Virus record (IMG/VR): IMGVR_UViG_3300046001_009870 | Span: 1-26,800 of that record | Origin: a virus | Direction: 5' to 3' (one strand) | DNA: 26,800 nucleotides | Shown here: positions 56 to 24,567 of the stretch, one piece after another | Numbering within the stretch: position 1 is the stretch's first letter | How the letters are laid out: every line of letters starts with the position of its first letter | Position numbers and translations under genes: made by a program | Notes under the pieces: generated by a model | What the model saw: the letters and a program-made list of their open reading frames with translations, nothing else | What the model was told of the DNA's origin: nothing | Databases searched by the model: none

Positions 56-64
56 CATAAATAT
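56..64 (-). promoter_or_regulatory. ATATTTATG motif, candidate late-type promoter
   Basis: The minus strand reads ATATTTATG ending 11 bases before the ATG at 44. It differs in the last base from the ATATTTATA motif found upstream of four leader-type genes in this window. A promoter role is inferred only from recurrence and position. Confidence 0.3.
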
Positions 65-717
65 TACTTTTTCCTTGAAACTAAAGCATATGGGTCACTT
101 TCAACTCTACTTTCATTGCCCCCTAACTCCTCCAGTTTTCTCATATGGTAATCATCTAATTTAAAATCAATCATTTCCGTGGTTTTATAAACGGTCTGAT
201 GGCCTTCCATGGACTCCATGTCTCGCTCAGTAAAAACGTTGCCTAAACGTATAAAATAGCAGTTATAACACGATAATTGTGGGTTACCATCTCTAAAATT
301 GTGTTTATTTCCATCTTTAAAAAACATAATTACAGGAATCTTACCATCAACCTCTCTTTTTTCATTGAACCCACACCAATAACATTCCTCTATCATATAT
401 CCGGCCTCCACCATCCTAAACTTTAGTTTATCTGGTGAAAAGGACGAAGCGTCTGCTGTTCCATTTACAATATCCTCAATAGCAGGTTGTTTTCTCCCAA
501 AAGGATGATTGCTCATAAATTTTGGAATACCTTTTCCACATTGGTTTTTATGTAAATCAAATAAAGACAATCCTGTTTCCTCATCTTTATATGCCTTCAT
601 AAACGGCTTTAGATGCTGATATGAACAATTTAAATAACGAGCCGCTGATAAAACTGAACGGGTTTGTTTCATTGCCCGCAGTACATCCTCTTTTGATATA
701 GGTTTTGCGTGAGCCAT
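64..717 (-). CDS. HNH-like zinc-binding phage protein with N-terminal HTH, catalytic site possibly degenerate
   Basis: 217 aa. Residues about 8-40 (EDVLRAMKQTRSVLSAARYL and what follows) look like a helix-turn-helix of the sort found in phage HNH homing-type proteins. A central part has CYWC (about 112-115) and a second pair CYNC (about 150-153), with a segment between them (MFFKDGNKHNF) that lines up with the HNH pattern xxHHIdGxxxxN before a CxxC knuckle. Where a nuclease normally has the first histidines there are phenylalanines, so catalysis may be lost. It precedes the leftmost partial gene and follows the zinc-finger gene by 2 bases. It could be a DNA-binding or nicking protein, or a structural relic. 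The family-level call is moderate; the function is inference. Confidence 0.6.
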   Translation of the reverse strand: MAHAKPISKEDVLRAMKQTRSVLSAARYLNCSYQHLKPFMKAYKDEETGLSLFDLHKNQCGKGIPKFMSNHPFGRKQPAIEDIVNGTADASSFSPDKLKFRMVEAGYMIEECYWCGFNEKREVDGKIPVIMFFKDGNKHNFRDGNPQLSCYNCYFIRLGNVFTERDMESMEGHQTVYKTTEMIDFKLDDYHMRKLEELGGNESRVESDPYALVSRKK

Positions 718-719
718 TT

Positions 720-1019
720 TTACATTATATTGTCAAAGTCAATATCCTCTTCATTTTTAGCATCTTCTTTTTCAAAATCAAGCATCTCAACTTTAGAGTC
801 CTTAAAGTAATTTTGTTGATGCTTTTCATACACATCATATTGTTCAGGTTCCATTAAAACAATATCTGTCCACGTGTGATCTTTTTCACCAAACATCATT
901 GGTACTCCTCGTTTTGCTCCAGTAGTTGAACATTCAACACATGTTTTTGCTGTTGGCAATGCTTTTATTCTTAAGGGATTTATTGTCTCTCGACATTTAA
1001 TGCATATTCTATTTTCCAT
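720..1019 (-). CDS. Small DksA/TraR-like zinc-finger protein with acidic tail
   Basis: 99 aa. Residues 6-9 (CIKC) and about 27-30 (CVEC) flank a segment with N-P-L-R-x-K-A-L-P, matching the layout of the DksA/TraR C4 zinc finger (CxxCG..I...RL.A.P...CxxC). The long coiled-coil of true DksA is absent, so this is only the finger plus about 65 residues ending in a strongly acidic tail (EKEDAKNEEDIDFDNIM). Such miniature fingers are common in large phages; binding to host RNA polymerase is possible but not shown. It overlaps the upstream gene by 11 bases. Confidence 0.6.
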   Translation of the reverse strand: MENRICIKCRETINPLRIKALPTAKTCVECSTTGAKRGVPMMFGEKDHTWTDIVLMEPEQYDVYEKHQQNYFKDSKVEMLDFEKEDAKNEEDIDFDNIM

Positions 1020-1392
1020 CGTATCTTTTTAAAAATTTGTATAATTGTAATGGTGTGTTAATTATGTGTCTGACTCCATCTTCTGAAACTAAAGGGTAAA
1101 CTTCACCATTTTCTTTTAAGCTTTCAAATACCCACCATATAATTATGTTTTTTTCTAATTCTCCATATTGTTTTTCAAGCAATCCTTCAATTATTTGAAA
1201 ATGTAAATCCTCATATTTAACAAGGCTTATTCCTACACTTTCAGATATTTTTTGGTATGCCTCAATTTCACATAAAATTGAAATTATATCTAAAAAGAAT
1301 TTTTCCTTTTTACGTTTAATTGATTTTTCACTCTCTTCTATTCTACCGCCTTTTCCAATTAATTCACTTAGTTTTTTGAACGTCTCTTCCAT
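1009..1392 (-). CDS. Unknown phage protein, 127 aa
   Basis: No family recognised. The N-terminal 35 residues are rich in K and E (predicted helical). The middle is helical with a hydrophobic stretch and a paired tryptophan (IIIWWVFESLKE), and the end (VRHIINTPLQLYKFLKRYDGK) is basic. It overlaps both neighbours (11 bases with the zinc-finger gene, 25 bases with the 58-aa gene upstream), which supports translation as part of the same transcript. No signal peptide or membrane segment is evident. Confidence 0.6.
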   Translation of the reverse strand: MEETFKKLSELIGKGGRIEESEKSIKRKKEKFFLDIISILCEIEAYQKISESVGISLVKYEDLHFQIIEGLLEKQYGELEKNIIIWWVFESLKENGEVYPLVSEDGVRHIINTPLQLYKFLKRYDGK

Positions 1393-1544
1393 TCTTCTAC
1401 TTTAAATACTGTTAAAAAATCTTGTATATTCATATCTTTGATATGTGATGCTATTAAAATGGCATCTTCTAAATTGATAGCCTCTAATTTACCTTGGGGT
1501 TCCTTAGTTTTATCGTGTTTGTTATAGTATATATATAGGCTCAT
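1368..1544 (-). CDS. Small unknown protein, 58 aa
   Basis: I chose the ATG at 1544, giving M-S-L-Y-I-Y-Y-N-K-H as the start. A longer frame to 1670 would run deep into the dehydrogenase gene and has an unlikely leader. The protein is hydrophilic with a central helix-like stretch (EAINLEDAILIASHIKDMNI) and a basic end. Upstream is a short repetitive CA-rich stretch (minus strand AACACACCACACACA) between the sugar island and this gene. Function unknown. Confidence 0.5.
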   Translation of the reverse strand: MSLYIYYNKHDKTKEPQGKLEAINLEDAILIASHIKDMNIQDFLTVFKVEEWKRRSKN

Positions 1545-1566: not shown

Positions 1567-2415
1567 TTAGTTATTTGAGACAGCACGTCCGATTTGTTTT
1601 TCCCAATCTTTGTCTGTTCGTACCATTTCGTTTTTTGTAATAGTTGAATCCAACATTGTTGAATCAACATTTAGTGTTTTCATTACATATTGCAAAGCAG
1701 CAATATCTTTAGGGAAACAATGACCTCCAAATCCTAAATCACCATCGGGTCCGGGAACAGACCAATGTGAATTGCCTAATCTATCATCATATCGAGCATA
1801 TTCAATTACTTTATCATAATCAATTTCTAAAGTATTACATAATTGATATATCTCATTTGCATATGAAACTTTCATTGATAAAAATGTATTTGTAACATAT
1901 TTAATTGTTTCAGCTATAGTTGATGATGTTTTAATAATTGGCACCTTTGGGAATGCTTTTGCAAATATTTGTTTTACACGGGATGAATATGGTCTATCTG
2001 CTCCTATAATTATTCTATTTTGGTTTTTATAATCCTCAACAGCATTTGCCTCAGTTAAAAATTCCGGGTTAAAAGCAATTTGAATATTTTTAAATTCTTG
2101 ATTTAATTTTTCTGTAGTTCCCGGTGGAATAGTTGACTTGAGTATTACTATAAAATTTTCTTTTTGATAATACTCAACTATGTTTAAAATATCTTGTAAA
2201 CATTCTTTTACAATTGATAAATCACATTCTCCACTTTTGCGCATTGGAGTAGGTACACATAGAAATGTTTCATTCACTTGACTAATTAATTCATTAAGGG
2301 ATGGTTCATTACAATTGCCATTAGTATCAAATGTTCTAACATCATAATAATTTTTCATTCCTTCACGGACTGCGGATCCAACAAATCCTTGTCCTATAAC
2401 TCCTATTTTTTCCAT
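1567..2415 (-). CDS. UDP-glucose/GDP-mannose dehydrogenase family protein lacking the C-terminal domain
   Basis: 282 aa. The family oxidises the C6 hydroxyl of a nucleotide sugar to a uronic acid with NAD. Visible hallmarks: the Rossmann glycine motif GQGFVG (8-13), the CVPTP region (53-57), KSTIPPGT (93-100), the NPEFL motif with the catalytic-type glutamate (116-120), and the active-site cysteine in GFGGHCFPKD (C233). Usual members are about 390-450 aa; this one ends soon after the central helical domain, so the C-terminal nucleotide-sugar-binding domain is missing. The start at 2415 is preferred because its ATG overlaps the previous gene's TAA by one base; a longer frame to 2469 would overlap the glycosyltransferase heavily. 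It is the last gene of the sugar island. Activity on an unusual or shorter substrate, or a changed role, is possible. Confidence 0.82.
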   Translation of the reverse strand: MEKIGVIGQGFVGSAVREGMKNYYDVRTFDTNGNCNEPSLNELISQVNETFLCVPTPMRKSGECDLSIVKECLQDILNIVEYYQKENFIVILKSTIPPGTTEKLNQEFKNIQIAFNPEFLTEANAVEDYKNQNRIIIGADRPYSSRVKQIFAKAFPKVPIIKTSSTIAETIKYVTNTFLSMKVSYANEIYQLCNTLEIDYDKVIEYARYDDRLGNSHWSVPGPDGDLGFGGHCFPKDIAALQYVMKTLNVDSTMLDSTITKNEMVRTDKDWEKQIGRAVSNN

Positions 2416-3188
2416 TATAATATAAATTTTTGGTTTGTTTCGGGGTGTGAGTGAATATAACTTCCCCATTTGTATTTAGCATATTCCGAACAATGAAGTT
2501 CAATTTGTTTTTTTTCTAATTGTTTTTCTTTGGTGGGGGATGTTCCTAGAGATACAAAATGATAAAAATGACAATTCCATGTTCTAATCATTTTTAGTCC
2601 TGCAAGAGAGCATTTCATAAAGAATTCCCAATCTACTACCCAAGGACCAGGATATGTTTCATCAAAACCTCCTATTTTTAAATAATCATATTTTGAAATT
2701 AAAAATGGGAATGTTGACCCACATTCTTCTTTTTTATCCCCCGAGATATAATGGTAATCATATTGCCAAAATTGTTCTAAATCAAAAGTTTTTGGGTCAC
2801 GTCCTAAATCCTTGATATGGAATTGTTTAAATATTGAAGGTGTTGGTTCAATTTGATTAGGAGTGATTACTGATCCTTCTTCCCATTCTTCTTCTAATGT
2901 TGTATCCCAAAATCGTGGAAATACATTATCGTCTTGAACATGGAAAACTAAATCGTGGGAAGCATTGTAATGACCTAAATTCATAGCTTTAATCATCCCT
3001 ACATTTTCTTCTAAATTTAGAATTTCTATATGTTCAGAATATTTTTTAAGTATCTCTTTATTTATATCATAAAAACCATCAACCACAACTATTATTTGGT
3101 TTTTATTTCTTTGCCCTTCAATAGCAGAACGTAAACATAAATCTAATGCTTCGGGTTCTTTATATGTAGTAATAATTACACTTATCAT
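2415..3188 (-). CDS. Family 2-type glycosyltransferase (GT-A fold)
   Basis: 257 aa. Starts with the classical GT2 strand MISVIITTYKEPEALDLCL, followed by IIVVVDGFYD, a central V-Q-D-D-N motif (about 93-97, the metal/nucleotide-binding DxD-like site), and a later GGFDETYPGPW-VVDWEF segment (about 183-201) typical of acceptor-side GT2 residues. No membrane helices are seen, so it is probably soluble. The start at 3188 forms a 4-base ATGA overlap with the upstream gene's stop; a longer frame to 3221 is less likely. It sits in a chain of overlapping sugar genes. The transferred sugar cannot be read from the sequence. Confidence 0.85.
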   Translation of the reverse strand: MISVIITTYKEPEALDLCLRSAIEGQRNKNQIIVVVDGFYDINKEILKKYSEHIEILNLEENVGMIKAMNLGHYNASHDLVFHVQDDNVFPRFWDTTLEEEWEEGSVITPNQIEPTPSIFKQFHIKDLGRDPKTFDLEQFWQYDYHYISGDKKEECGSTFPFLISKYDYLKIGGFDETYPGPWVVDWEFFMKCSLAGLKMIRTWNCHFYHFVSLGTSPTKEKQLEKKQIELHCSEYAKYKWGSYIHSHPETNQKFIL

Positions 3189-3883
3189 ACTTGACTCCAA
3201 TCTGTTAAAGGTGATAACCAAGCTGTTTCTCCGTGAGTTGAATATCCTGGTATGGGGGTAATTAACAATTCATTATTGGTTTGGAATTCTATAAACATTT
3301 GGAAATCTTGGGGGTAATGACCCATGTTAGTCCATTTTCTAAGATTTGATTCTATTCTTTTTAAAGTATTTACTTTAGAAGCAAAAGTCATTGTTGTTGA
3401 ATTAGTAATTTTCCAATGACAAGAATCAGTTAAATATACTCGAGTGTCTTCTGCTCCACCTTCACAATATGGATTACCTCCATCTATTGGATCCATATAT
3501 TTGTCAGGATGGTCATATAGTGCTACAAAAGATGCTCCTAAATTAAATCCTTCTTCTAAAATAGCAGGAGAATTTTGTTTGTGTATATAATCATTTTCTA
3601 CAAAATAAACAATTTCATCATCTTCCCATTTTAATGCTTTATCTAATGCTAAATTAAATGTTCCAGCACCGTGTCCTATAGATACTTTCTCAATATTTAC
3701 AGAATCAATATATTTATTGATCATATCCATTGTGGATTTACTACAATTATCTGCGATAATATGGATATCATAGATATGGTCATAGAACACATTACAAAAA
3801 TTTTGTAGACATTTTTCATTGTCTATATAATCAGGTTTTATTTTGTTATAACCTGCATCTGAGATTCGGTAGATGATTTTCAT
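3185..3883 (-). CDS. Putative glycosyltransferase-like protein
   Basis: 232 aa. The opening MKIIYRISDAGYNKIKPDYI is followed by IHIIADNCS (about 60-68) and a segment YFVENDYIHKQ (about 93-103) that resembles the nucleotide-sugar/metal site of GT-A enzymes (E-N-D-Y in place of DxD). Near the end is GHYPQDFQMFIEF and a final G-Y-S-T-H-G-E-T. I read it as a glycosyltransferase-like protein on the fold pattern and on its position between two other sugar genes, with 4-base overlaps on both sides. No exact family assigned. Confidence 0.65.
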   Translation of the reverse strand: MKIIYRISDAGYNKIKPDYIDNEKCLQNFCNVFYDHIYDIHIIADNCSKSTMDMINKYIDSVNIEKVSIGHGAGTFNLALDKALKWEDDEIVYFVENDYIHKQNSPAILEEGFNLGASFVALYDHPDKYMDPIDGGNPYCEGGAEDTRVYLTDSCHWKITNSTTMTFASKVNTLKRIESNLRKWTNMGHYPQDFQMFIEFQTNNELLITPIPGYSTHGETAWLSPLTDWSQV

Positions 3884-4671
3884 ATTTCTATTATTGGTTG
3901 TTCATTATATGGGAAATGGCATATTCCTTCTATCATTATATTTTTATGGCTACAGTCATGTATATTATTATCTTTTATTACTTGTAATAAATATAAGTAC
4001 TTTTCTTCAGGGAGCAAATGATATTTTGTAAGATTATTTCTTTCTATGCAATTTTTTAAAAAGTCTTCACAGCTCCATCCCTGGAGATATTCCCAAATTC
4101 TTCCGTTGTAATTTGGTAGTGATTGAATAAATTGATATGTTTCATCTAAAAATGTTTTATCATTGAGGAAATCGGTTTTTGAAATATTAATAAAGTAAAA
4201 GTTGGTTTGTGGATAAAAATCTTCATTGATGATTCGATTAAAGTCAAAATCATATTTAATCATTCCACCATATCCAATTCCATTCATGTAATAGAAATCA
4301 GCATCATCAATTTCTTTTTTTAGAATAGAATTATTAAAAATAACATCATTTGCTCCTTTACAAAGCCATTCTTCATTATTTTCTTTACACCAATCAAATA
4401 CTAAATTATCTAAATCAGTATAACCATGATTATGACCTCTATTTACTCTAGAATCAATTAAGACACATTCAGGAAAATATTTTTTCCATAGTTGTGAATT
4501 TTGGATTTGGAATGGTGAACCATAGTTTGTAGCTATAACTATTTGTTTAAATTCTTTTAAAACTAAAAGGTTATAAAGAATATAGGATTCTAGTGTGTTT
4601 ATATCATCTTGAGATTTGATATAACCAATAGTCCCGTAAACTGATTTATTTATTAATTCCTTTAAGAGCAT
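3880..4671 (-). CDS. Putative glycosyltransferase-like protein, unknown specificity
   Basis: 263 aa. Features are a start with internal hydrophobic strands (FKQIVIATNYGSP, about 41-53), an Asn/Asp-rich middle (WLCKGANDVIFNN, about 102-114) where a GT-A metal site would be, and an aromatic-rich C-terminal half with WSCEDFLKNC (about 199-208). The aspartate-containing K-G-A-N-D-V-I segment resembles the DxD-equivalent region of distant glycosyltransferases, but the match is weak. It overlaps the reductase gene upstream by 26 bases and the downstream gene by 4, so it is clearly part of the same operon. Confidence 0.55.
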   Translation of the reverse strand: MLLKELINKSVYGTIGYIKSQDDINTLESYILYNLLVLKEFKQIVIATNYGSPFQIQNSQLWKKYFPECVLIDSRVNRGHNHGYTDLDNLVFDWCKENNEEWLCKGANDVIFNNSILKKEIDDADFYYMNGIGYGGMIKYDFDFNRIINEDFYPQTNFYFINISKTDFLNDKTFLDETYQFIQSLPNYNGRIWEYLQGWSCEDFLKNCIERNNLTKYHLLPEEKYLYLLQVIKDNNIHDCSHKNIMIEGICHFPYNEQPIIEI

Positions 4672-5383
4672 TGTTTAATTTATTTAAATCCATTGTTGTG
4701 TTTCCGGGTACCTCAGGGGTACGAAATGCTACTTTTACAGGAGTTGTTTGAGAAGCTAATTCAAACATAGATTTTACATGAGTACCTATATTAAACACCC
4801 CTGTAGAGCCTAATTGGATTAGTTGGATAATTAGTTTGGAAATAGTATCTACATAATCAAAGTTACCTGTCTGGTCTATCCAAGCTTTATCATATGGGAA
4901 GGGTTTTAATTTATGAGTCCCTCTACATATCAAGTAATTGTTAGATTTTAATTCAATGTAAGCATCTCCTAATAATTTAGTATATGAATACCAATTATTA
5001 CCATGAATTGGAATATCATTTTCAGAGGCTTCATTTATTGAATTAGTATAAACATAATCTGTTGAAATATGAACTAATTTTATATCCCATTTATTGCAAA
5101 AATCAACTAAATTAGCTACACCTTTATAATTTACATTCCAATGTTCTTCTTTGTTAGTAGCATAAGTATTTGTATTAGCTACACAATTTACAATAACATC
5201 ATATTTTTTAGCAGCGATTACCCCCTCAAATATATCTATAAAATGAGAAAAAAACGTATCAGGTTGGGTTATATCAAAACTATTTTCTTTTCTTGATACA
5301 ATATCCCAACCTGTTTGTTTGTGGATTTCTGATCCTAATAATCCATCTCCTAAGATTACGATTCTGGGAATACTTCTATGCAT
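4646..5383 (-). CDS. RmlD-like NAD(P)-dependent sugar reductase/epimerase (extended SDR)
   Basis: 245 aa. Rossmann nucleotide-binding motif GDGLLGSEI (12-20), conserved NCVANTNT region (66-73), the strand-end motif HISTDYVY (105-112) and the catalytic Y132-x3-K136 pair (W-Y-S-Y-T-K). These match extended short-chain dehydrogenases, closest in layout to dTDP-4-dehydrorhamnose reductase (RmlD), which reduces a 4-keto sugar. Length is somewhat below the usual 280-300 aa. In context it could reduce the 4-keto product of the B6-dependent dehydrase encoded two genes upstream; that pairing is inference. It overlaps the small upstream gene by 28 bases. Confidence 0.8.
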   Translation of the reverse strand: MHRSIPRIVILGDGLLGSEIHKQTGWDIVSRKENSFDITQPDTFFSHFIDIFEGVIAAKKYDVIVNCVANTNTYATNKEEHWNVNYKGVANLVDFCNKWDIKLVHISTDYVYTNSINEASENDIPIHGNNWYSYTKLLGDAYIELKSNNYLICRGTHKLKPFPYDKAWIDQTGNFDYVDTISKLIIQLIQLGSTGVFNIGTHVKSMFELASQTTPVKVAFRTPEVPGNTTMDLNKLNNALKGINK

Positions 5384-5565
5384 AATACATTTTTATCATT
5401 GATGAGAATCATTCTACCATCTTGGGTAATTAATTTAGTAAATTGACCTTGTTTAATATATTCTGATTTGATGTTTTCGAATGTTCGTTTTTCTCCTCCA
5501 ACAAAATGGATTATTTGGGTTACTATTTTACCCTGTTTTTTAATACTAGATTGTAAATCAGTCAT
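5356..5565 (-). CDS. Small beta-rich phage protein, 69 aa, inside the sugar island
   Basis: I chose the ATG at 5565 (M-T-D-L-Q-S-S-I), which overlaps the end of the dehydrase gene by 8 bases; a longer in-frame start would lie deep inside that gene. The pattern IIHFVGGEKRTFENI then GQFTKLITQDGRMILIN then NVLCIEV suggests a small all-beta fold with alternating strands. I know similar small proteins from T4-like phages without an assigned role. It has no catalytic motif. It could modulate a neighbouring enzyme or be an unrelated phage gene trapped in the island. Confidence 0.55.
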   Translation of the reverse strand: MTDLQSSIKKQGKIVTQIIHFVGGEKRTFENIKSEYIKQGQFTKLITQDGRMILINDKNVLCIEVFPES

Positions 5566-6850
5566 TCTTAAACTTTTTAATAACAGACTCAATATAATCA
5601 AATACTTCTTGTGTATAGTGAGGTGCTGCTCCAATAAAGAATACTTTATCTAATACTTTATTTGCTTCAGGATATTTTGATGAATCATCTAAGAAACTAT
5701 ATCCTGGGTGGAGTAATATATTACCTGCGAAATAATTTCGTGTTTGGATTTTATTATCTTCTAAATATTGAACAAGTTTATGTTTTAATCCTTCTTTTTC
5801 ACAAATGAATGGTGTTCCAAACCAACACGGATCAGCTTTATCTAATGTTTTAGGTGCTCTAAGGCCAGAGATATTATCTGTAAATATTTTTTCTAAAGTT
5901 TCTTTAGATGTTCTACGATTAGCTTCGATTTCATCTAATTTTTTTAATTGTTCTACTCCAATAGCACCTTGTAGATCTAGTGGTTTTAAATTATAACCCA
6001 TTTCAGAGAAAACATATTTGTGGTCGATAATGCCATCATATGAATCTAACCATTTATCAAATCGTTTACCACAAGTACCACAAGACATTAAATTAGCGGC
6101 TCCTACACAATAACAATCTCTACCCCACCATGAAATACTAACCATTAATTTTTTTAATGCTTCATCGTTGGTACAAATCATTCCACCTTCACCTGTTGAA
6201 ATATGGTGAGCAGGATAAAATGAATTTGAGAATGCTACGTAATATTCATTTAAATATTTTCCATCCCATTTAGAACCTAAACTATCACAATTATCACCTA
6301 CTAATAAAATGTTATATTTTTCAGCAATAGCTAATAAACGATCAAAATCTGGTGGATTTCCTAATACTGGAGAGACAAATATTGCTTTTGTTTTAGGTGT
6401 GATTTTTAGTTCAAGTAAATCTAAATCAAAATTTAATGTTTCCCATTCAATATCAACAAACACAGGTTTAAGTCTATGTTGATGTATTACAGAAATTGTA
6501 GTTGCAAATCCTACAGGGGATACGATGATTTCATCGTCATCTGCCCAATTAAATCGTCGTTTTAAGGCGGCTATCAACACTAGATTTGCTGATGAACCGG
6601 AATTTACCATGTGGGAATATTTGGTGTTGAATCGTTTTCCGAATTGTCTTTCGAACTTAAATACACTTTCTCCTGTTGTAACCCATCTACCATTTAAAAA
6701 AGCATCCATTGCTGCTTCAGTTTCTTTATTGTCCCAATAAGGACCGGAGTAGTAAATAGGTGTTTCACCTGGTTTAAATGTTTTGGCATTATAAATGTAT
6801 GGGGATACATGATTGCCTACTAATGATTGGATGTTTTCTTTTGAAATCAT
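5558..6850 (-). CDS. RfbH/E1-type CDP-4-keto-6-deoxyglucose 3-dehydrase (PMP and [2Fe-2S] enzyme)
   Basis: 430 aa, close to the usual length of about 437 for RfbH/E1. The fold is that of DegT/DnrJ aminotransferases, but in the segment SFYPAHHISTGEGG (210-223) the PLP-binding lysine is replaced by histidine (H215), as in the 3-dehydrase branch (RfbH, ascarylose E1, ColD), which uses free PMP to remove the C3 hydroxyl of a 4-keto-6-deoxy sugar. Cysteines C188, C246, C248 and C257 (or C260) give C-x57-C-x1-C-x8-C, nearly identical to the C-x57-C-x1-C-x7-C cluster of E1; ColD lacks these. D-x-D-H-K-Y and GYNL follow as in RfbH. It would supply the key step of 3,6-dideoxyhexose synthesis. The electron-donating reductase (E3/RfbI type) and the cytidylyltransferase are not in this window. 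Confidence 0.85.
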   Translation of the reverse strand: MISKENIQSLVGNHVSPYIYNAKTFKPGETPIYYSGPYWDNKETEAAMDAFLNGRWVTTGESVFKFERQFGKRFNTKYSHMVNSGSSANLVLIAALKRRFNWADDDEIIVSPVGFATTISVIHQHRLKPVFVDIEWETLNFDLDLLELKITPKTKAIFVSPVLGNPPDFDRLLAIAEKYNILLVGDNCDSLGSKWDGKYLNEYYVAFSNSFYPAHHISTGEGGMICTNDEALKKLMVSISWWGRDCYCVGAANLMSCGTCGKRFDKWLDSYDGIIDHKYVFSEMGYNLKPLDLQGAIGVEQLKKLDEIEANRRTSKETLEKIFTDNISGLRAPKTLDKADPCWFGTPFICEKEGLKHKLVQYLEDNKIQTRNYFAGNILLHPGYSFLDDSSKYPEANKVLDKVFFIGAAPHYTQEVFDYIESVIKKFKND

Positions 6851-7716
6851 ATTTTAGATAATATATAGTTTGCTAAATTTTTAGTTGTTAGATTATTTTT
6901 AGTATAATCAAATAACTCATTTAATATACTAAAGTATTTTTGTTCATCAAAGTTTTCTGTTAAATTTTTAGCTTCTAAGAGTAATTCCTTAGGTAAATTA
7001 GCTAAGGTATTTTTAGGACAATCTTCTAGACCAACAAAATAAGGGATACAATAGTTTCCTAAAATTTCATAGTGTCTCATACAGTCCCACCCTGCTTTTT
7101 TTGTAGTAACTCCATAATAGGATTTTTGATAATCTTCAAAATATGATTGTTCCGATTTAAAAACATAAGTTTCAGGTTGTCCGGGAATGCATGTAGCGTA
7201 GTCTTGGGTTTTGTTTAAATTAGGGATAGCTACTTTATCAGTTGGAATACCAAATGTGATAGGTAATAAATTTTTATGATCTTCTACTAACTCACGTTTA
7301 AAATATAGGTGTTTTTCATAGAGGGGGTCTAAATCAGATTCATCATTACCATCAATCAATATAACTTTATTAGGTGGATAGTGTTTGGAAACTAGATCAT
7401 AATAATTTTTACAACGTTTAATAGCACCATAGATGATTAAATCATAGTATTGATCCTTAATTTTTTCTTCAATATTAGTTCTATCGATATTATTATCTCC
7501 AATTAGCCAGAATGCAGTCATTCCACCCCATAAATTTTGGGTAGGAATTTTACCTTCATATTCTTTATAAAGTGACACTATTGGAGTACTGTCTACTACA
7601 TCATCACCAAATAATTCTCTTAATCCATAAAATATAAGATCGTTTTGGTAATCATTAATAAATCCTCCACTAGCATTAGCTATGTCAAGGTGATTAGTTA
7701 TGTATAATATTTTCAT
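6847..7716 (-). CDS. Putative glycosyltransferase (CgeB/exostosin-like pattern)
   Basis: 289 aa. Starts with MKILYITNHLD, a GT-B-like first strand, then has YDLIIYGAIKRCKN (about 91-104), VILIDGNDESDLDP (about 118-131) and YFKREL. The last third contains W-D-C-M-R-H-Y-E-I-L-G-N-Y-C-I-P-Y-F, the conserved pattern around the nucleotide-sugar-binding part of CgeB-like and exostosin-like transferases (R-x-x-E-x-x-x-x-G-x-x-P). It overlaps the dehydrase by 4 bases and the FkbM gene by 23. The sugar donor is unknown. Confidence 0.65.
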   Translation of the reverse strand: MKILYITNHLDIANASGGFINDYQNDLIFYGLRELFGDDVVDSTPIVSLYKEYEGKIPTQNLWGGMTAFWLIGDNNIDRTNIEEKIKDQYYDLIIYGAIKRCKNYYDLVSKHYPPNKVILIDGNDESDLDPLYEKHLYFKRELVEDHKNLLPITFGIPTDKVAIPNLNKTQDYATCIPGQPETYVFKSEQSYFEDYQKSYYGVTTKKAGWDCMRHYEILGNYCIPYFVGLEDCPKNTLANLPKELLLEAKNLTENFDEQKYFSILNELFDYTKNNLTTKNLANYILSKI

Positions 7717-8308
7717 TTATAAAAAGGATATCTTGGTGGTAAATTTCTCCATTATATGGTAAATCACTTAAAATTTCATATTTAGTAAAATTTATAGATT
7801 TCATATAATCAACTACCTCATCATAAAGAGGGGAGTTTTGATTATATTCTTTTAAAGCTACTTCAAGAAGAATACCTTTAGCTTTTTTACAAAGTTTAAT
7901 TCCTCCGCGTATGATATCTAATTCAGCTCCCTGGACATCCATTTTTATAAGATCAAATTTTTCGTTTTCATCAAAAACTTCATCTAATGGGTATCCTTGT
8001 TTTTGTAATACTTTAGTATTTTGTTCATTGAAATATGGAGTTAATTCTTTGTAAATAGAATTTCCTGTTCCTGAGATTACGTTACTAGTATAAAAAGGGT
8101 ATATTTTATTTTCTCTAGTTAATAATTTAATAAAATAATTTGGATTAACATTTTTTAAAGTAGTTTCACACTCTTCGTTAGCTTCAATAGAAAATATATA
8201 ACTTTCTGGGAAAATTTGTTTACATTGAGCATACCATCCTCCAACATTAGCTCCTATATCTAAAATTCTACTAGGAATAAAATAATTTTTAACTATATCT
8301 AAATTCAT
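7694..8308 (-). CDS. FkbM-family SAM-dependent methyltransferase
   Basis: 204 aa. The SAM-binding glycine motif is LDIGANVGGW (16-25), the acidic end of strand 2 is SIEANEE (40-46), and the FkbM signature KMDVQGAELDII (122-133) is intact. FkbM enzymes methylate hydroxyls of sugars or polyketides, and in glycan clusters they typically O-methylate a sugar. The protein starts just upstream of the first motif, so it is a compact catalytic domain. It overlaps glycosyltransferase genes on both sides (23 and 4 bases), so co-translation with them is likely. Confidence 0.85.
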   Translation of the reverse strand: MNLDIVKNYFIPSRILDIGANVGGWYAQCKQIFPESYIFSIEANEECETTLKNVNPNYFIKLLTRENKIYPFYTSNVISGTGNSIYKELTPYFNEQNTKVLQKQGYPLDEVFDENEKFDLIKMDVQGAELDIIRGGIKLCKKAKGILLEVALKEYNQNSPLYDEVVDYMKSINFTKYEILSDLPYNGEIYHQDILFINENIIHN

Positions 8309-9222
8309 AAAAATACTTGATTAAATTGATTTATAACTATTTCTGGGGTAAATTTTTGATAGCAATTCCATTCTTTATTTTTAATATCAGAATGTTGAAT
8401 GTTAAATAATATATTTGATAATTCATTAAAATTAGAATAATATATTCCTTTATCTTGAAGGATTTCAATATGATTTCTTTCTGGGGATAATGAGTATGTG
8501 ATAATAGGTTTGTTTTTAGAAGAAAATTCAGCTATAGCTAATCCAAATGTTTCTCCTCTTTCCCGAGCATGAATCATAATGTCACAAGTGTTTATAAAAG
8601 ATACTTTTTGATATTGATCAGTTGTACCAGCAATAAAAATAACATTTTCTAAATCGCAAAATGAATCTTGATTCATAAATAAAAACACAATATCTTTACG
8701 TTTAGATGCAACATCAATAACAGCTTGTTTAGCAAATGGGATTTCAAAATTATTTCCACCATACCAACCTATAACTAATTGATTCTTTATATTAAAAAAC
8801 TCTTTAAAATTTGATTTAACTTCAGGTAAGTTTACCATATGAGGTACATATGGAGATTTATTTCCATGATTTTCAGCTAACCATTTAGATACATATGCAT
8901 ATATATCACCATGAGGTTCGTATGAAGGAAAAACAACATGAACTAAATTTTTAGCATCAGGATGTGATTGTCCATCATTGAATCCATATTTTAATGAATA
9001 AAAATAGTCACACGGAAATTTTTGGATTTGAGAAAATAAATCAAAAATATGGGTATCAAATCTTGAATTAAATTTATCAAAACTTTTTAATTCTGATGTA
9101 TTAAGGGATGCTATAACTGATTTATTTCCTAAAATAGTTTCGTTAAAATGAGCATAGTCATATGTTGCTATACTAGTTCCTCTTTCATTTAAGTTAGGAT
9201 CAAAAAATAAAATTGTTTTCAT
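8305..9222 (-). CDS. GT4-like (GT-B fold) glycosyltransferase
   Basis: 305 aa. Starts MKTILFFDPNLNERGTSIAT, a glycine-containing N-terminal loop typical of GT4 enzymes. It has a central VIGWYGGNNFEIPFAKQAV stretch where the second Rossmann domain begins (about 150-170), and a donor-site region HARERGETFGLAIAEFSSKN (about 217-236) with the family E-x7-E pattern (E-T-F-G-L-A-I-A-E). Membrane segments are absent. It lies between the two FkbM genes with 4-base overlaps, implying a unit in which one sugar is added and methylated. Confidence 0.8.
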   Translation of the reverse strand: MKTILFFDPNLNERGTSIATYDYAHFNETILGNKSVIASLNTSELKSFDKFNSRFDTHIFDLFSQIQKFPCDYFYSLKYGFNDGQSHPDAKNLVHVVFPSYEPHGDIYAYVSKWLAENHGNKSPYVPHMVNLPEVKSNFKEFFNIKNQLVIGWYGGNNFEIPFAKQAVIDVASKRKDIVFLFMNQDSFCDLENVIFIAGTTDQYQKVSFINTCDIMIHARERGETFGLAIAEFSSKNKPIITYSLSPERNHIEILQDKGIYYSNFNELSNILFNIQHSDIKNKEWNCYQKFTPEIVINQFNQVFL

Positions 9223-9953
9223 ATTTCAACTAATGGTAAAATGTCTTTTAAGGCTTCTATTTTATCTATATCATTAACGGTGCAAATATGATCACAAGGA
9301 TATTCATTATTTATTTTAAACATCCTATAACCAAATGATTTAATATAATCAATTAATTGGTTTTCTGTTATATCAAATTTGATTAATTGGTGTGGTTCTA
9401 TTTCAATAAATAATGTTGGTTTTTGTGTAGTAAGTAAATTTTTAGCACCTTCTAAAGTAAAAAGTTCATATCCTTGTACATCTATCTTAATAAAACTTAC
9501 TTGAGGGAAATCAAAATCATCTAGCTTATAGATATCTACTTCTTCCCCACCTTCTCCAATAGAAGTATCTCCAATATTTACCCAAGATAATTCATAATCT
9601 ACGGGTCTCATTGTTGTTGATTTTTGGGTACCGTCTCCTAAAGCTACTTGATATGTGATAGAATTAAAAATATTGTTTAAAATTAAATTTCCATTTAATT
9701 GTTGATGGATAATTCTTTGGGGTTCAAATGCTACCAATAACCCATTATTATTAAGTCTTTTACCCATCAATACCGCATTATAACCAAAATTAGCTCCACA
9801 ATCTAAAACAGTATCTCCAGGAGATATAAATTGTTCAATTACTGGGGAGAAATGGGATTCCCAAGGTTTACCTGATTTTATATGTTGGGCTATAGCATCA
9901 TTTGGGAAAATGATAAAATCACCATCTTCATTTTTAAAAATTTCTGAGGTCAT
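9219..9953 (-). CDS. Second FkbM-family SAM-dependent methyltransferase
   Basis: 244 aa. SAM-binding motif VLDCGANFGYNAVL (about 49-62), acidic VAFEPQ (about 74-79), and the signature FIKIDVQGYELFTLEG (about 155-170). It differs clearly from the other FkbM protein in this window: it is longer, with an extra N-terminal 45 residues (M-T-S-E-I-F-K-N) and a C-terminal helical part ending LKDILPLVEI. So these are not a recent duplication. Likely O-methylation of a sugar or of a glycosylated acceptor; it overlaps neighbours by 4 bases each. Confidence 0.85.
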   Translation of the reverse strand: MTSEIFKNEDGDFIIFPNDAIAQHIKSGKPWESHFSPVIEQFISPGDTVLDCGANFGYNAVLMGKRLNNNGLLVAFEPQRIIHQQLNGNLILNNIFNSITYQVALGDGTQKSTTMRPVDYELSWVNIGDTSIGEGGEEVDIYKLDDFDFPQVSFIKIDVQGYELFTLEGAKNLLTTQKPTLFIEIEPHQLIKFDITENQLIDYIKSFGYRMFKINNEYPCDHICTVNDIDKIEALKDILPLVEI

Positions 9954-10573
9954 AATGTATTGTAATAATTGTTTTGTTTTTCTTGTTTATCTATTGTTTT
10001 TGGGTGATATAAGCAATACTCCTCTTCTGAAGGTAAAGTAGACATTATTTTATAACCCTCTAGCACCTCATGTACTTTATTTTTCCATTTGATTTCTGGC
10101 TTATTTTGCCAAATGCGCCATTGATAATCGGGAAAATTTACCCATCCATTTGGATTGACATTCCATCCCCATTGTTGAATATGTTTATCTGTTAATCCCT
10201 CTACTGTGTTAATTCGAGGTACTAGTAGCACATCTACTGTTGGGTTACCCTCAATAATATCAGGTAAATATTCTATTAATGTTTTAGTTGGAATTTCATC
10301 TGCATCTATCTGAAATATATAATCTCCAGTACAGTAGCTAGTTAATTTGTTTTTCCAATCTGCAAAATGTCTTTCAAATTTTCCTGTATACCAACTAAAT
10401 TCTCCATTAACTGAATGGGATCTTAGGTATGCTTCAATTTCTTTGCCTCCATTTGCTTCATCAAATAATACTACAATGTCATCTTGAGCTCGTTTATGTT
10501 TAAGTAAAAAGTTTATCAATCGTTGGATCTCTAAAAACTCAGTACAAACAGTAATTGCATAACTTATTCTCAT
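9950..10573 (-). CDS. Family 2 glycosyltransferase
   Basis: 207 aa, short for a GT2. Begins MRISYAITVCTEFLEIQRLI, then DDIVVLFDEANGG (about 31-43), the metal-binding motif I-D-A-D-E-I-P (about 89-95) and a GWVNFPDYQWRIW / KVHEVLEG block (about 142-172) that is common in GT2 enzymes of lipopolysaccharide core type. FADWKN (about 70-75) matches the usual A/S-x-W-R-N at the sugar-binding loop. It is followed by a 5-base gap to the next upstream gene and overlaps the FkbM gene downstream by 4. Confidence 0.82.
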   Translation of the reverse strand: MRISYAITVCTEFLEIQRLINFLLKHKRAQDDIVVLFDEANGGKEIEAYLRSHSVNGEFSWYTGKFERHFADWKNKLTSYCTGDYIFQIDADEIPTKTLIEYLPDIIEGNPTVDVLLVPRINTVEGLTDKHIQQWGWNVNPNGWVNFPDYQWRIWQNKPEIKWKNKVHEVLEGYKIMSTLPSEEEYCLYHPKTIDKQEKQNNYYNTL

Positions 10574-10578
10574 ATATT

Positions 10579-11043
10579 TTATTCAGGTAATATTCCAATA
10601 TACGAAAGGGCATCCATATAGTCACGCTCTTCAAACTTTTTCATGTTTATCATATCCATTCTATATTCCATAAATTCTCCAGGTTTACCAGGGATTGGAT
10701 ATTTCTTTTTATCTTTTTTAGGTACTTTTATAGCTTTAACAGCTGCCCATCCCCAATTTTGGGAATTTGTGCCATTGGCAAATACCATTCCTTTGTCAGC
10801 AATATTTAGTGTTTGTGGCAACCAAATTAAACCAGTTTCAGGATCAGTCCAAGCTAAATCTTTATACAATTCAGGTAGTGTTTCTATTTGAGTTTGATAA
10901 AATTCATGTCCCTCTTTCATAAATGAATTAGTCCAAAATCCACATGATAAACTTTGAAAATTTTGTATTTCTGGTGTTACTTGAATTTTGTAACATAAAT
11001 TTCCTCCTGATTTAGGGCAGTCAACTATTTCTTCTTTTTGCAT
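10579..11043 (-). CDS. Conserved T4-like phage protein of unknown function, 154 aa
   Basis: N-terminal DCPKSGGNLCYKI (8-20) holds two cysteines spaced C-x7-C, followed by a third in CGFWTNS (about 34-40). The centre is WTDPETGLIWLPQTLNI (about 65-81), then NWGWAAVKAIKVPKKDKKKY. I recall similar proteins in marine T4-like phages, always unassigned. Its position between glycosyltransferases is odd: it has no glycosyltransferase or methyltransferase motif. It may be a structural or accessory protein that is itself the acceptor, but that is speculation. Confidence 0.6.
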   Translation of the reverse strand: MQKEEIVDCPKSGGNLCYKIQVTPEIQNFQSLSCGFWTNSFMKEGHEFYQTQIETLPELYKDLAWTDPETGLIWLPQTLNIADKGMVFANGTNSQNWGWAAVKAIKVPKKDKKKYPIPGKPGEFMEYRMDMINMKKFEERDYMDALSYIGILPE

Positions 11044-12353
11044 TATTCTACGGGTTTTAATTTTGGTAATTCTATTTTATTTAGTTTTGGCAATTCAATC
11101 TTTTTTAATTGAGGCAATTTTAATTGTATTTGTTTTGGAAATTCCGGGATTTTTTCTTCAAATAGTTTACCTAGTTTTTCTTTCATTGCTTCATATGAAA
11201 ATTTAGAGCGAGATTGGAAACCTTGGCGCTTTGCATTTTCAGCATATCCTTTATAGTTTTCAAATACATCTTTTAAATAGTGCCCTACGTGTCCTGTATC
11301 TACCGAAAACCATTCTGCATCCGCTAGCAACATATGATTTGCTGCTGATGGATGGATTTTAGTCATTGTGCCTTGAAGCAATGTTGTAAATTCAGGGTTT
11401 AAATAATCTACAGGGCCGCTCCAATTTGATGCAATTATTGGTTTGTTTACAAGTGAAAATTCAAGTAACGGGCGACCAAATCCTTCTCCTTTAGTTAGAT
11501 TAACCATTGCTTTAACTTTTGAATGGTTGTAGATTTCATTTATTTCTTCATCCGAAAATTCACCATGTAGTAAATATACATTAGGTAAATTATTTGATTT
11601 ACAAGAATCTTTAATTTGTTTAACTCTTTTTAATATTCTATCTCTATCTAAATAAGAAGAACCTACAGTTGATGTTTTTAGTATAAGTGCAGGTTTTTTA
11701 GATTTGTTTTTAAATGTTTCATAGAATGCTTTAATAAGCAATCCTACATTTTTTCTATCTTCTCCCATTTGACCTTCCATCCAATGACCTACAAATAAAT
11801 AAGCAAAGTCCTCTTTAATATTAGATAAATCAAATGTTGATTTTACTGGCTTATATATATCTGTGTTTGCGCCCTCAAATATAATTTCATTCTCTCCATT
11901 CCACTCAAGCATTCCTTGAGATTGGTTTGTTTGTTTATCTCGTTTTTCCCATTTACTATTTTTTAACACATCAATTGTGTGTTTTGATGATCCTAAAATC
12001 AAGTTCATACGATTGCAACCTTCAATCCAATCACCAGGAGCAATAGTTGATTCAATTCCTGCGGTACATCCAATGTTATATTTTCCAACAGGTTGAAATT
12101 CATTTGGAACTGTAATTTGCATCCAAATTTCAGGTTGGTTAGGTGGTTGAACTGTTATCATGTGTTTAGATAAAAAATTCCATTCTGGATGATTTTGAAT
12201 GAATCCTTTTGGGGTTTGTCCCCATCTTTGAGGCATTATTTTTACTTCATATTTATCTAATTCAATAATTGCTTTAACGATATCTCGTGAACGTGCTCCA
12301 TATCCACTGTAAGTATCAATTGGGCACGAAATTAAAAATGTTGGTTTACTCAT
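11043..12353 (-). CDS. GT4-family glycosyltransferase with C-terminal Leu-Pro-Lys-Leu repeats
   Basis: 436 aa. The N-terminal FLISCPIDTYSGYGARSRDI (5-24) has the glycine-rich acceptor loop of GT4. The second domain has YLFVGHWMEGQMGEDRKNVG (about 188-207) and the donor site LTKGEGFGRPLLEFSLVNKP (about 285-304) with the E-x7-E pattern (E-G-F-G-R-P-L-L-E). The final 27 residues are a run of repeats of the type K-I-E-L-P-K-L, unusual for the family and perhaps a flexible arm or docking tail. It is preceded by another GT4 gene 9 bases upstream, and its stop overlaps the next gene's start by one base. Confidence 0.85.
   Translation of the reverse strand: MSKPTFLISCPIDTYSGYGARSRDIVKAIIELDKYEVKIMPQRWGQTPKGFIQNHPEWNFLSKHMITVQPPNQPEIWMQITVPNEFQPVGKYNIGCTAGIESTIAPGDWIEGCNRMNLILGSSKHTIDVLKNSKWEKRDKQTNQSQGMLEWNGENEIIFEGANTDIYKPVKSTFDLSNIKEDFAYLFVGHWMEGQMGEDRKNVGLLIKAFYETFKNKSKKPALILKTSTVGSSYLDRDRILKRVKQIKDSCKSNNLPNVYLLHGEFSDEEINEIYNHSKVKAMVNLTKGEGFGRPLLEFSLVNKPIIASNWSGPVDYLNPEFTTLLQGTMTKIHPSAANHMLLADAEWFSVDTGHVGHYLKDVFENYKGYAENAKRQGFQSRSKFSYEAMKEKLGKLFEEKIPEFPKQIQLKLPQLKKIELPKLNKIELPKLKPVE
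11046..11126 (-). repeat. Tandem heptad-like repeat coding the C-terminal tail
   Basis: The last 27 codons of the glycosyltransferase encode three to four copies of a seven-residue unit (LPxLxKIE), visible in DNA as near-repeats of a TTTGGCAATTCAAT-like unit. It could arise by slippage and vary in copy number between relatives. Confidence 0.6.
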
Positions 12354-12362
12354 AACTTTATT

Positions 12363-13802
12363 TTAATATACAAATTTGTGATTAATTGTGTTTTCTTTTA
12401 CTTCATTGCAATTGATTAACTCATACTTTTCTCGCGGAGTCCACGTGTTAAATAATTGATCTATCGCGTTTATTGCTTTAATTCCCATATCCTCTGCTGT
12501 AAATCCTACATCATTTACCGCCCAATGTCTGCCTGTAGCTCCAAGTTCTTTTCTCATTGGTCTACCTAAAGCATATACTTCAGATATTCGAGCGGCTGCA
12601 TCCTCTGCTGTGCATCTATCATCCCAAATATATGGTGTTGTAGGTGAACCTTGAATTGAGCGACTTGTTGGATACACTGGGAATGCCCAGCAACCATGGT
12701 TTTTGTATCTTCCAGTATGGTTTGAAGGTATTTCAGGAGAAGGTGTATACCATTTTCCAAATTCATCTTCAAATCCCATTTGATCTTGCATTCCACCTGT
12801 TACATTAGCTATGATTACAGTTCCTGCTAAAATTGCTTCCGTTAGTGATAAACCCCATCCTTCATTTGAAGTTAATAGAATTTGTGCATCCGCAATATTA
12901 TACATCATGTTTAATTGTTGTGGTGAAAGTGGATTAGTTGAAAAATATATTGCATCTGGATAATCATTAAATAGTATTTCACGCACTGCGTTTAAATCGG
13001 TTCCATGCTCACTTACTATTTCTGTATGCATTAATAGAGCACATTTAGCTGCTTTTTCTTTAGGTAAAGTATCTAAAAATATTTTAAAAGCAAGCATTGT
13101 GTCCGGAATTTGTTTTCTTCTAATGTTTCTTGAATTAAAAAATACAACAAAATCTTTTTCTTTACCACCAAATATAGTAGACTTTAATGTCTCTAATTCT
13201 TTTAGCTCATCCTCTTTTACAATTGGATAGTACATATCGTGATTTAAACCGTGAGGAACATACTCAATTATTTTTTTACCTCTTTTTTCATCTAAAACAA
13301 GCTCATTAATTAATTTAGTTTGCTTTGAAATAGCTAACAATGCATCACATGATTCATAAAATGCTTTATTGTATAGCGGTGCTGGGTAGTCATCCCAAAT
13401 ATTTAAATAAATGATTGGCATGTGTTTTCTAATCTCATTTTCAATTGCAAACAGCCATTCAAAATATCTTGGATCAGTAATTAACATAATTGCATCTGGT
13501 TTTTCAACCTCAATCATGTGTCTGATCAAATCAGCATCTCCATAGTTATCTACAGGATACAAGAAAACAGAAGCATCTGTTAATTTTGTGTTTGTGTTTG
13601 TGTCTTGAGATAAGTCAAAACGTTTTCCTTTTTCAGGATGGTTAATTGCACCTGCAATATTTACCCAATTAAAATGTTGAGCTGTATTTAATACTAGCTC
13701 TTTTGCTATAGTTGCTACTCCAGAGTGTACTCTAATGTCGTCACAAATTAGCATGATTTTTTTCCTCTCGTTTTGAGGGAGATAATTAAAACTTGAATTC
13801 AT
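12363..13802 (-). CDS. GT4-family glycosyltransferase
   Basis: 479 aa. N-terminal IMLICDDIRVHSGVATIAKE (16-35) is the GT4 first strand and glycine loop; ALLAISKQTK (about 153-162) and YVPHGLNHDMYYP (about 181-193) are the usual interdomain motifs. FFNSRNIRRKQIPD (about 216-229) starts the donor domain, and LLTSNEGWGLSLTEAILAGT (about 304-323) is the donor-sugar site with E-x7-E. A long insert follows (to about residue 410) rich in W, P and H, beyond the usual layout. It is the most upstream sugar gene and so probably the first in the glycan operon. Confidence 0.85.
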   Translation of the reverse strand: MNSSFNYLPQNERKKIMLICDDIRVHSGVATIAKELVLNTAQHFNWVNIAGAINHPEKGKRFDLSQDTNTNTKLTDASVFLYPVDNYGDADLIRHMIEVEKPDAIMLITDPRYFEWLFAIENEIRKHMPIIYLNIWDDYPAPLYNKAFYESCDALLAISKQTKLINELVLDEKRGKKIIEYVPHGLNHDMYYPIVKEDELKELETLKSTIFGGKEKDFVVFFNSRNIRRKQIPDTMLAFKIFLDTLPKEKAAKCALLMHTEIVSEHGTDLNAVREILFNDYPDAIYFSTNPLSPQQLNMMYNIADAQILLTSNEGWGLSLTEAILAGTVIIANVTGGMQDQMGFEDEFGKWYTPSPEIPSNHTGRYKNHGCWAFPVYPTSRSIQGSPTTPYIWDDRCTAEDAAARISEVYALGRPMRKELGATGRHWAVNDVGFTAEDMGIKAINAIDQLFNTWTPREKYELINCNEVKENTINHKFVY

Positions 13803-14544: not shown

Positions 14545-14553
14545 AAAACTTTT

Positions 14554-15090: not shown

Positions 15091-15102
15091 AATCTTAAAA
15101 AA

Positions 15103-15812: not shown

Positions 15813-16751
15813 TTATACATATGTTGCAGAGCATAAATGAGTTTTGTTAAACAAACACCAATTACAATTTTTATGTGGGGTTGGTTGATGTTCAACATCT
15901 TTGTATCCATTTTTATCAAATGCTTGTTCTATAAATTCTTCAATTGATTTGGATACTTTATTTAATTTTACTTTACCTGATGCAGGTTTAAATAATTGTA
16001 CACGTTTGATTACGAATTTATCACTTTCAAAGGGTTTACGTTTTACTATCATAAATTCTATTTCTATATTCTCTAATGGTAAATTGTAGGTTTCAGAGAA
16101 ATATTTTTTATAGAGTATAAGTTGAAATTGTTTATTTTCGTCTGATTTTTCTTTTTTGCTCCAACCTTGTTTACTGGTTTTAATATCTATGATCTTGATT
16201 GTGTTTGTTGGCTCGTGGTACATTACAATGTCCAAGTAACCTTGGAACATTACATTGTATAATTTTGGAGAGGGGTGGAGTATAAGAGGTAACTCACATC
16301 CTACTAAATGCCAACCGCGTTTAGAAAAATATTTGTTTCTGTTTTTAGCAAATTCTCTTATGATTTCTACCCCGTCTTCAAAAAATTCCCTAAGTTCTTC
16401 AGGGGAGGTAAAGTGTTGATTATTGTTTGATTTATATTGCTTTTTATATTCTTCACGTAATGCATCTTCGAGCATTTCGTATGTGTTTAGTTTATCTGCT
16501 TCTGCTCCACTTTTTCCATACATTGTAGTTAAATATGATTGAAGTACTTCATGTAATGCTGTTCCAAAAACAGTATGGATGGAGGAAGTAAATTGTTTAT
16601 ATCCTTCTTTGTATTGGAGTGACCATTTTTTAGGACACTCATTGAACATGGATAATTGAGAATATGAAATAGATTTTTGAGTTGCATAATCTATTGTTGG
16701 TAATTGTTTACTCTTAATTTCTTTTAATAGTAAAGGTAACTTCTTTTTCAT
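15813..16751 (-). CDS. Cas4/RecB-like PD-(D/E)XK nuclease with iron-sulfur cysteines
   Basis: 312 aa from ATG 16751 (a TTG five codons upstream is in frame but falls in the promoter-like element). Motifs: YSQLSMFNECPKKWSLQY (30-47), GTALHEVLQSYL with H67, C-E-L-P-L (E153), GYLDIV (D174), IIDIKTSK (D189 and K191, the D-x-K catalytic pair) and a following Q-x-x-x-Y (Q210, Y214). C39 with C296, C299 and C307 form a likely 4Fe-4S set, as in Cas4 and AddB. It should be a ssDNA or dsDNA exonuclease used in recombination, repair or host-DNA breakdown. It sits behind an early-type promoter and hairpin. This family is recurrent in T4-like marine phages. Confidence 0.85.
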   Translation of the reverse strand: MKKKLPLLLKEIKSKQLPTIDYATQKSISYSQLSMFNECPKKWSLQYKEGYKQFTSSIHTVFGTALHEVLQSYLTTMYGKSGAEADKLNTYEMLEDALREEYKKQYKSNNNQHFTSPEELREFFEDGVEIIREFAKNRNKYFSKRGWHLVGCELPLILHPSPKLYNVMFQGYLDIVMYHEPTNTIKIIDIKTSKQGWSKKEKSDENKQFQLILYKKYFSETYNLPLENIEIEFMIVKRKPFESDKFVIKRVQLFKPASGKVKLNKVSKSIEEFIEQAFDKNGYKDVEHQPTPHKNCNWCLFNKTHLCSATYV

Positions 16752-16755
16752 TACA

Positions 16756-16786
16756 CAAAGATACAAAAAAAGCCTGCCATAGGCAA
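16756..16786 (-). promoter_or_regulatory. TTG-N20-TATCTTTG promoter-like element, 4 bases before ATG
   Basis: Minus strand TTG (16784-16786), 20-base spacer, then TATCTTTG (16756-16763), matching the Bacteroidetes TTG/TAnnTTTG promoter. The spacer includes part of the hairpin and the T-tract. The box ends 4 bases before the ATG of the nuclease gene, which would give a leaderless or near-leaderless transcript. Confidence 0.6.
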
Positions 16787-20757: not shown

Positions 20758-20809
20758 TATAATCCTGCTAATTTTTTCATTCTATATAAATCGAAATCAA
20801 ATTCCATTT
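20757..20809. repeat. 53-base direct repeat, copy 1
   Basis: Identical to 21381-21433. It covers the first base of the 115-aa gene, the short gap and the last bases of the 190-aa gene. On the minus strand it could code M-E-F-D-F-D-L-Y-R-M-K-K-L-A-G-L in a frame different from that of the 190-aa gene. Confidence 0.9.

Positions 20810-22634: not shown

Positions 22635-24563
<1,929 letters not shown>

Positions 24564-24567
<4 letters not shown>

Follow-up and report, generated by a model that had tools for sequence, protein, structure and literature searches.

We analysed a 26.8-kb linear viral contig (IMG/VR record IMGVR_UViG_3300046001_009870, positions 1 to 26,800; hereafter the window), in which every assigned gene lies on the minus strand. 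A T4-like replication block occupies 15.8-26.8 kb and comprises a PD-(D/E)XK exonuclease, gp62, gp44, GroEL, GroES, a sliding-clamp candidate and the C-terminus of gp43; at 1567-13802 lies a locus for glycan synthesis. An earlier reading of the letters alone (the original prediction) had described this locus as a tightly packed operon of about 12 kb, on one strand of a T4-like genome. Indeed, 1567-13802 is entirely on the minus strand, with genes that mostly overlap by 1-26 bases or are separated by gaps of fewer than 10 bases, and the T4-type replication set gp43/gp45/gp44/gp62 places the window in a T4-like phage; gp43, gp44 and gp62 were assigned by PHROGs matches, and gp45 (24989-25723) from position alone, with no PHROG match. 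What the prediction overlooked is that the locus is not a one-off gain, but a conserved core joined to an exchange cassette. The core, gt4a-gt4b-u154-gt2b (9950-13802), adjoins the replication block:

12363..13802, minus strand: gt4a, GT4-type glycosyltransferase (GT), first core gene; PF00534 above the Pfam cut-off
11043..12353, minus strand: gt4b, second core GT4-type glycosyltransferase; PF00534 above the Pfam cut-off, weak B736L match
10579..11043, minus strand: u154, small core protein of no known enzyme family; alignment of 25
9950..10573, minus strand: gt2b, GT2 glycosyltransferase, last core gene; PF00535 above the Pfam cut-off

The best solved relative of the gt4a profile is chlorovirus B736L (3oy2, E=4e-13), and the EX7E motif of gt4a (E314/E322) is invariant in 25 relatives. 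In gt2b the DAD motif (D90/D92) is invariant, and the profile, along almost all of its length, matches the glycosyltransferase domain of GmaR, its best solved relative (E=1e-9), followed by 6p61 and then by SunS (5e-6, over the first part of the profile). SunS is a peptide S-glycosyltransferase. GmaR transfers N-acetylglucosamine to flagellin (PMC9638930), and we regard gt2b as a candidate for a protein-linked first-sugar transferase. For u154, zinc-ribbon-like cysteines were seen in distant members of the alignment; its predicted structure is confident (pLDDT 93), found no fold match in the PDB, and gave a single viral match, of unknown function.

Relatives were collected by a scan with the cassette dehydrase and a scan with gt4a (80 loci each), onto which the genes of the window were mapped, and, to avoid sampling on glycan genes, also by gp44. 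The recurrent gene order was gp45, GroES/GroEL, gp44, gp62, exonuclease, u65, gt4a, gt4b, u154, gt2b. In the gp44-sampled relatives gt4a was present in all 28 for which 6.5 kb or more of downstream sequence was available, and the full ordered core in 15 of 15 with sufficient sequence. The core was also recognisable in nearly all of forty stretches, 8-20 kb long, taken downstream of gt4a, u154 going unrecognised in three. Pairwise distances of gt4a, gt4b and u154 track those of the replication and exonuclease genes (rho 0.85-0.94; against gp62, 0.94 for gt4a and 0.92 for gt4b), those of gt2b do so less (rho 0.65-0.67), and those of the cassette dehydrase and reductase weakly (rho 0.07-0.51; against gp62, 0.17 and 0.36); these values are descriptive and not tests, because the pairs depend on one another. 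The core and the replication genes are equally constant.

A core in the same order is present in an isolate, Flavobacterium phage immuto, and a diverged one in a Microcystis phage; the core is therefore not tied to the envelope chemistry of a single host. In the Microcystis phage Mel-JY01, gt4a is annotated as two neighbouring genes, as if split (L165:11998-13489). A gt4a-like match at E 1e-20 was found in 1 of 295 Bacteroidia genomes (L227, on contig C162 of G280), possibly on a phage contig inside the assembly. As gt4a is essentially absent from the sampled Bacteroidia, bacterial loci gave no guide to the function of the core.

Beyond gt2b lies the cassette. Its genes in the window, together with the fixed flanks of the locus, are:

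15813..16766, minus strand: PD-(D/E)XK exonuclease, fixed core-side flank; PF12705, in 28/28 gp44-anchored relatives
9219..9953, minus strand: FkbM-family methyltransferase 2; PF05050, TIGR01444
8305..9222, minus strand: gt4c, GT4-like transferase; PF00534 below cut-off, EX7E in the sequence, PHROG glycosyltransferase
7694..8308, minus strand: FkbM-family methyltransferase 1; PF05050, TIGR01444
6847..7716, minus strand: protein with no assigned family; common to four fetched relatives
5558..6850, minus strand: RfbH/E1-type 3-dehydrase, predicted sugar 3-deoxygenation; PDB 3bcx, E=2e-77
5356..5634, minus strand: small open reading frame between dehydrase and reductase, with a probable start inside; cluster 22, in four complete cassettes including the window
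4646..5383, minus strand: RmlD-like SDR reductase; PF04321
3880..4671, minus strand: putative GT-A glycosyltransferase; predicted structure, pLDDT 77
3185..3883, minus strand: putative GT-A glycosyltransferase; weak profile match to the solved glycosyltransferase 5tze, E=0.004
2415..3188, minus strand: GT2 glycosyltransferase, ATG start near 3188; PF00535 above cut-off
1567..2469, minus strand: short UDP-sugar 6-dehydrogenase, end of the cassette; PF03721 and PF00984 only
1368..1544, minus strand: u58, small conserved gene at the cassette border; resembles cluster 0 proteins, in 18/29 complete cassettes
64..1392, minus strand: u127, DksA-like zinc-finger and HNH genes, fixed flank past the cassette; PHROGs for DksA-like and HNH, recurrent border

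The enzyme families named in the original prediction were largely recovered: the two FkbM methyltransferases, the 3-dehydrase, the RmlD-like reductase, and the short sugar dehydrogenase, which is a UDP-sugar dehydrogenase with no C-terminal domain. About eight GTs had been counted; seven have some support, those at 2415, 9950, 11043 and 12363 passing Pfam cut-offs, whereas searches of Pfam, NCBIfam, PHROGs and the PDB gave no significant sequence match for 6847-7716. The latter is also the one left unsupported among three transferases already flagged as uncertain: 3185-3883 has its weak profile match, and the model of 3880-4671 has a GT-A-like predicted fold, with Foldseek matches to GT-A enzymes at E down to 2.5e-5, yet a TM-score of about 0.4. 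Two genes, u154 inside the GT core and the small gene at 5356-5634, had been missed.

Taking a complete cassette as the sequence from gt2b to the u127/DksA/HNH border, we obtained 29 (the window included), which span 3.5-14.7 kb and encode 383 proteins; these fall into 189 families, of which 120 occur once. The Pfam content of 150 representatives includes epimerases/SDRs, GT2, FkbM and other methyltransferases, DegT enzymes, NeuB and similar. Three relatives (L084, L085 and L086) have 95.7-97% DNA identity to the window across the core. The contig of L084 stops within gt2b; the matches of the other two reach the end of gt2b, past which the fetched stretch of L085 extends without matching the window again, and in L086 about 7.6 kb of other genes follow, the first being a different aminotransferase-like gene. 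A fourth, L004, has kept gt2b (94.4%) and window positions 3876-7717 (91.7%), the sole part common to the two cassettes, 7717-9950 not being kept; in L089, the dehydrase region is 92.6% identical inside a backbone of 72-85%. The cassette is exchanged between phages at a fixed site, between constant flanks.

In the dehydrase of the window, a histidine replaces the lysine that binds pyridoxal phosphate (FYPAHH at 216, aligned to 3bcx), as it does in 92 of 93 close homologs. The E1 iron-sulfur motif is C-X57-C-X1-C-X7-C; the dehydrase has C188-X57-C246-X1-C248-X8-C257, with the first three cysteines conserved and the last spacing different. Its score against the NCBIfam RfbH equivalog (365.5 bits) is below the 423-bit cut-off; it should work like RfbH, though it is not a formal member of the equivalog. 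The RmlD-like reductase follows the dehydrase in several cassettes and, most simply, the dehydrase and the adjoining SDR would make a 3,6-dideoxyhexose. The same pair also occurs in a Woesearchaeota metagenome-assembled genome contig (L225:8001-9354; 56% and 47% identity to the window), which suggests that it is a mobile two-gene sugar module. The UDP-sugar dehydrogenase has the NAD and central domains and keeps the catalytic GFGGHC motif, the C-terminal domain being missing. A similar short form of 282 aa is present in the relative L166, and that of the window is therefore not a random truncation; its activity despite the missing third domain is uncertain.

By a hydropathy count, 371 of the 383 cassette proteins have no predicted transmembrane segment, and none of the 383 has four or more; as a control, the same count detects Wzy (6 segments) and Wzx (9 segments) in the E. 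coli K-12 locus. PF01943, the Wzx-type flippase, was absent from 16 long relatives, with the control positive in 13 of 14. On these results, a lipid-linked envelope glycan would need carrier loading and export by the host.

The reading that we favour, at a probability of roughly 0.55, is that the locus directs cytoplasmic glycosylation of a phage protein, probably of the virion, the base of the glycan being conserved and its outer sugars interchangeable. The relationship of the core enzymes to GmaR, SunS and B736L, together with the retention of the core across Flavobacterium and Microcystis phages, favours a phage-encoded protein as the acceptor. A precedent is provided by the chlorovirus capsid glycans, which have a conserved core and virus-specific outer sugars and are synthesized in the cytoplasm (PMC7019647). 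Here, in the cytoplasm of the host, gt2b, gt4a and gt4b would attach the first sugar of a short glycan directly to the phage protein (most likely one of the virion) and lengthen the chain, with u154 possibly acting as an accessory or acceptor-recognition factor. Cassette enzymes would add the outer sugars, which for the window may be 3-deoxygenated (3,6-dideoxyhexose-like) and possibly include a uronic acid, plus methyl groups, and recombination at the fixed site would swap this outer part, giving phages with different surface glycan types. The original prediction had proposed a methylated oligosaccharide, with which the enzyme content agrees; among the targets it left open, a cytoplasmically made protein, most simply one of the virion, is favoured over a lipid-carried envelope glycan. 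We would put at even odds the broader proposal that an aquatic T4-like lineage carries a 'viral serotype locus', in which a universal protein-glycosylation core places a base glycan on virions, outer sugars come from exchanged cassettes, and near-identical phages differ in their glycans.

Several points weigh against glycosylation of a virion protein. The protein acceptor is a proposal, and the glycan is predicted from enzyme families. The ranking of gt2b relatives covers solved structures only, which are a biased sample, and related GT2 enzymes acting on the core of lipopolysaccharide (LPS) exist; 3,6-dideoxy sugars, moreover, are classical O-antigen sugars. The window has no genes for the upstream sugar steps, such as CDP-glucose formation, and the starting nucleotide sugar would therefore come from the host or from elsewhere in the phage genome. 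The hydropathy count is a simple one, and the absence of phage membrane genes is no proof, because the phage could borrow the lipid carrier and flippase of the host.

The main rival is that the enzymes remodel the envelope of the host (its LPS core, O-antigen or capsule) during infection and so block superinfection. The enzymes that make LPS core are soluble and cytoplasmic, and remodelling is therefore compatible with the missing membrane genes; the 3-dehydrase resembles RfbH of O-antigen pathways, and envelope change is the published reading for similar gene sets in cyanophages and pelagimyophages (PMC7029224, PMC9602691). However, the 16 long relatives yielded no flippase and the cassettes no membrane protein of polymerase size, one core is retained in phages of both Bacteroidota and cyanobacteria, and that core is constant like replication genes, unlike an accessory exclusion gene. 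We consider remodelling possible, though on balance unlikely. Glycosylation of phage DNA is the use to which T4 and its relatives put their GTs, and phage GTs are able to decorate DNA with a variety of glycans, as summarized in PMC12619734 from Pyle 2024. In glucosylation of the T4 type the sugar goes onto a hydroxymethylated base, which a dCMP hydroxymethylase makes. This explanation nevertheless appears improbable: the PF00303 family (thymidylate synthase/dCMP-hydroxymethylase) was found in 6 of the 16 long relatives (two of the six with internal stops; several of the 16 records are fragments), although the core is constant, immuto has a 7-deazaguanine pathway instead, and 7-8 GTs with swapped sugar genes exceed, in our judgement, the needs of known DNA glycosylation. 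A Tet/JBP search gave no match, but with its control likewise silent this is uninformative.

A large locus could also be kept as genome 'stuffer' with little function, as raised for cyanophage LPS clusters (PMC3037559), and the wide variability of cassette content would suit this. Uninterrupted open frames, conserved catalytic motifs and a universal core make it more improbable still. Last, the original prediction had itself named a contig chimera, or genes present at this identity only in bacterial genomes, as what would refute it; both checks came out in its favour. The 13.8-kb junction recurs in dozens of independent contigs, the u58/DksA/HNH border recurs in complete relatives, and the isolate genome has the same junctions, so a chimera was rejected. 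Bacterial genes with no phage role can be practically dismissed as well, the dehydrase reaching 97-99% identity in phage contigs against 63% in the best bacterial copy found.

The remainder of the window holds further features. GroEL (22635-24266) and GroES (24268-24618) are phage-encoded, adjoin the clamp genes and are retained throughout the lineage. Between the exonuclease and u65 lie u150, u178 and u230 (14092-15795), absent from most relatives and present in L110. Otherwise dissimilar proteins (16899-17156, 17398-18102, 20010-20360 and 20797-21369) have in common an N-terminal leader, M..E.LRMQMLAG(I/V)ITEGQYK.KL, with weaker copies at 25785-26132 and 15103-15795; the leader is also found in the relatives L114, L119, L125 and L127. 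An (I/L)xE site inside it resembles the T4 prohead protease cut, and these sequences are candidate capsid-targeting leaders of internal head proteins. No tRNA genes were found in the window. A Shine-Dalgarno-like motif precedes 1 of 30 window genes; rarity of such motifs is usual in Bacteroidota, and the host is likely a member of this phylum.

Ever since the cyanophage genomes it has been asked what large sugar gene sets do for lytic T4-like phages; whether those of the cyanophages are functional is not known (PMC3037559). A core as constant as replication genes, beside genes that are swapped in the manner of a serotype locus, speaks for a function that is real and diversifying. This function is directly testable in the cultured relative immuto, which grows on Flavobacterium LMO8 and has the same core. 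Phage sugar clusters as such are already known, in cyanophages and pelagiphages; in the literature searched we found no description of a locus that sits at a fixed site on the replication side, joins a universal core to an exchange cassette and lacks lipid-carrier machinery.

Among isolates, immuto (vB_FspM_immuto, NC_055915) is the nearest to have the whole layout; its GroEL and gt4a are 59% and 53% identical to those of the window. Its order is the same, PD-(D/E)XK, small gene, gt4a, gt4b, u154, gt2b, cassette, DksA-like, HNH, but it has another cassette and a family A DNA polymerase. Its 7-deazaguanine DNA modification pathway comprises FolE, QueD, QueE, QueF and DpdA (L164:9-10232). Our literature search found no published analysis of its glycan genes. 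The T4-like cyanophages P-SSM2, S-SSM7 and S-SM2 likewise carry large LPS-type sugar gene sets, but these clusters lie near hli03, phoH and tRNAs in a minority of genomes (PMC3037559), whereas the locus described here has a universal core at a fixed site beside PD-(D/E)XK/gp62/gp44. Pelagimyophages, also aquatic T4-like phages, share variable GT genes and a UDP-glucose dehydrogenase; many of their GT genes lie in the tail-fibre hypervariable region, and a change of the host O-chain was inferred (PMC7029224). Bacterial O-antigen loci, too, exchange sugar-nucleotide enzymes and GTs between fixed flanks; the flippase and polymerase-size membrane protein were not found in the phage locus. Mycobacteriophages, whose GTs decorate capsid and tail tube as described in PMC12619734 and PMC10877033 (citing Freeman 2023), are a parallel in the proposed function. 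The chloroviruses resemble the proposal in their virus-encoded cytoplasmic GTs, conserved core, variable outer sugars and methylated capping sugar; they are eukaryotic viruses in which the acceptor is proven, whereas for the window a virion protein is the probable acceptor.

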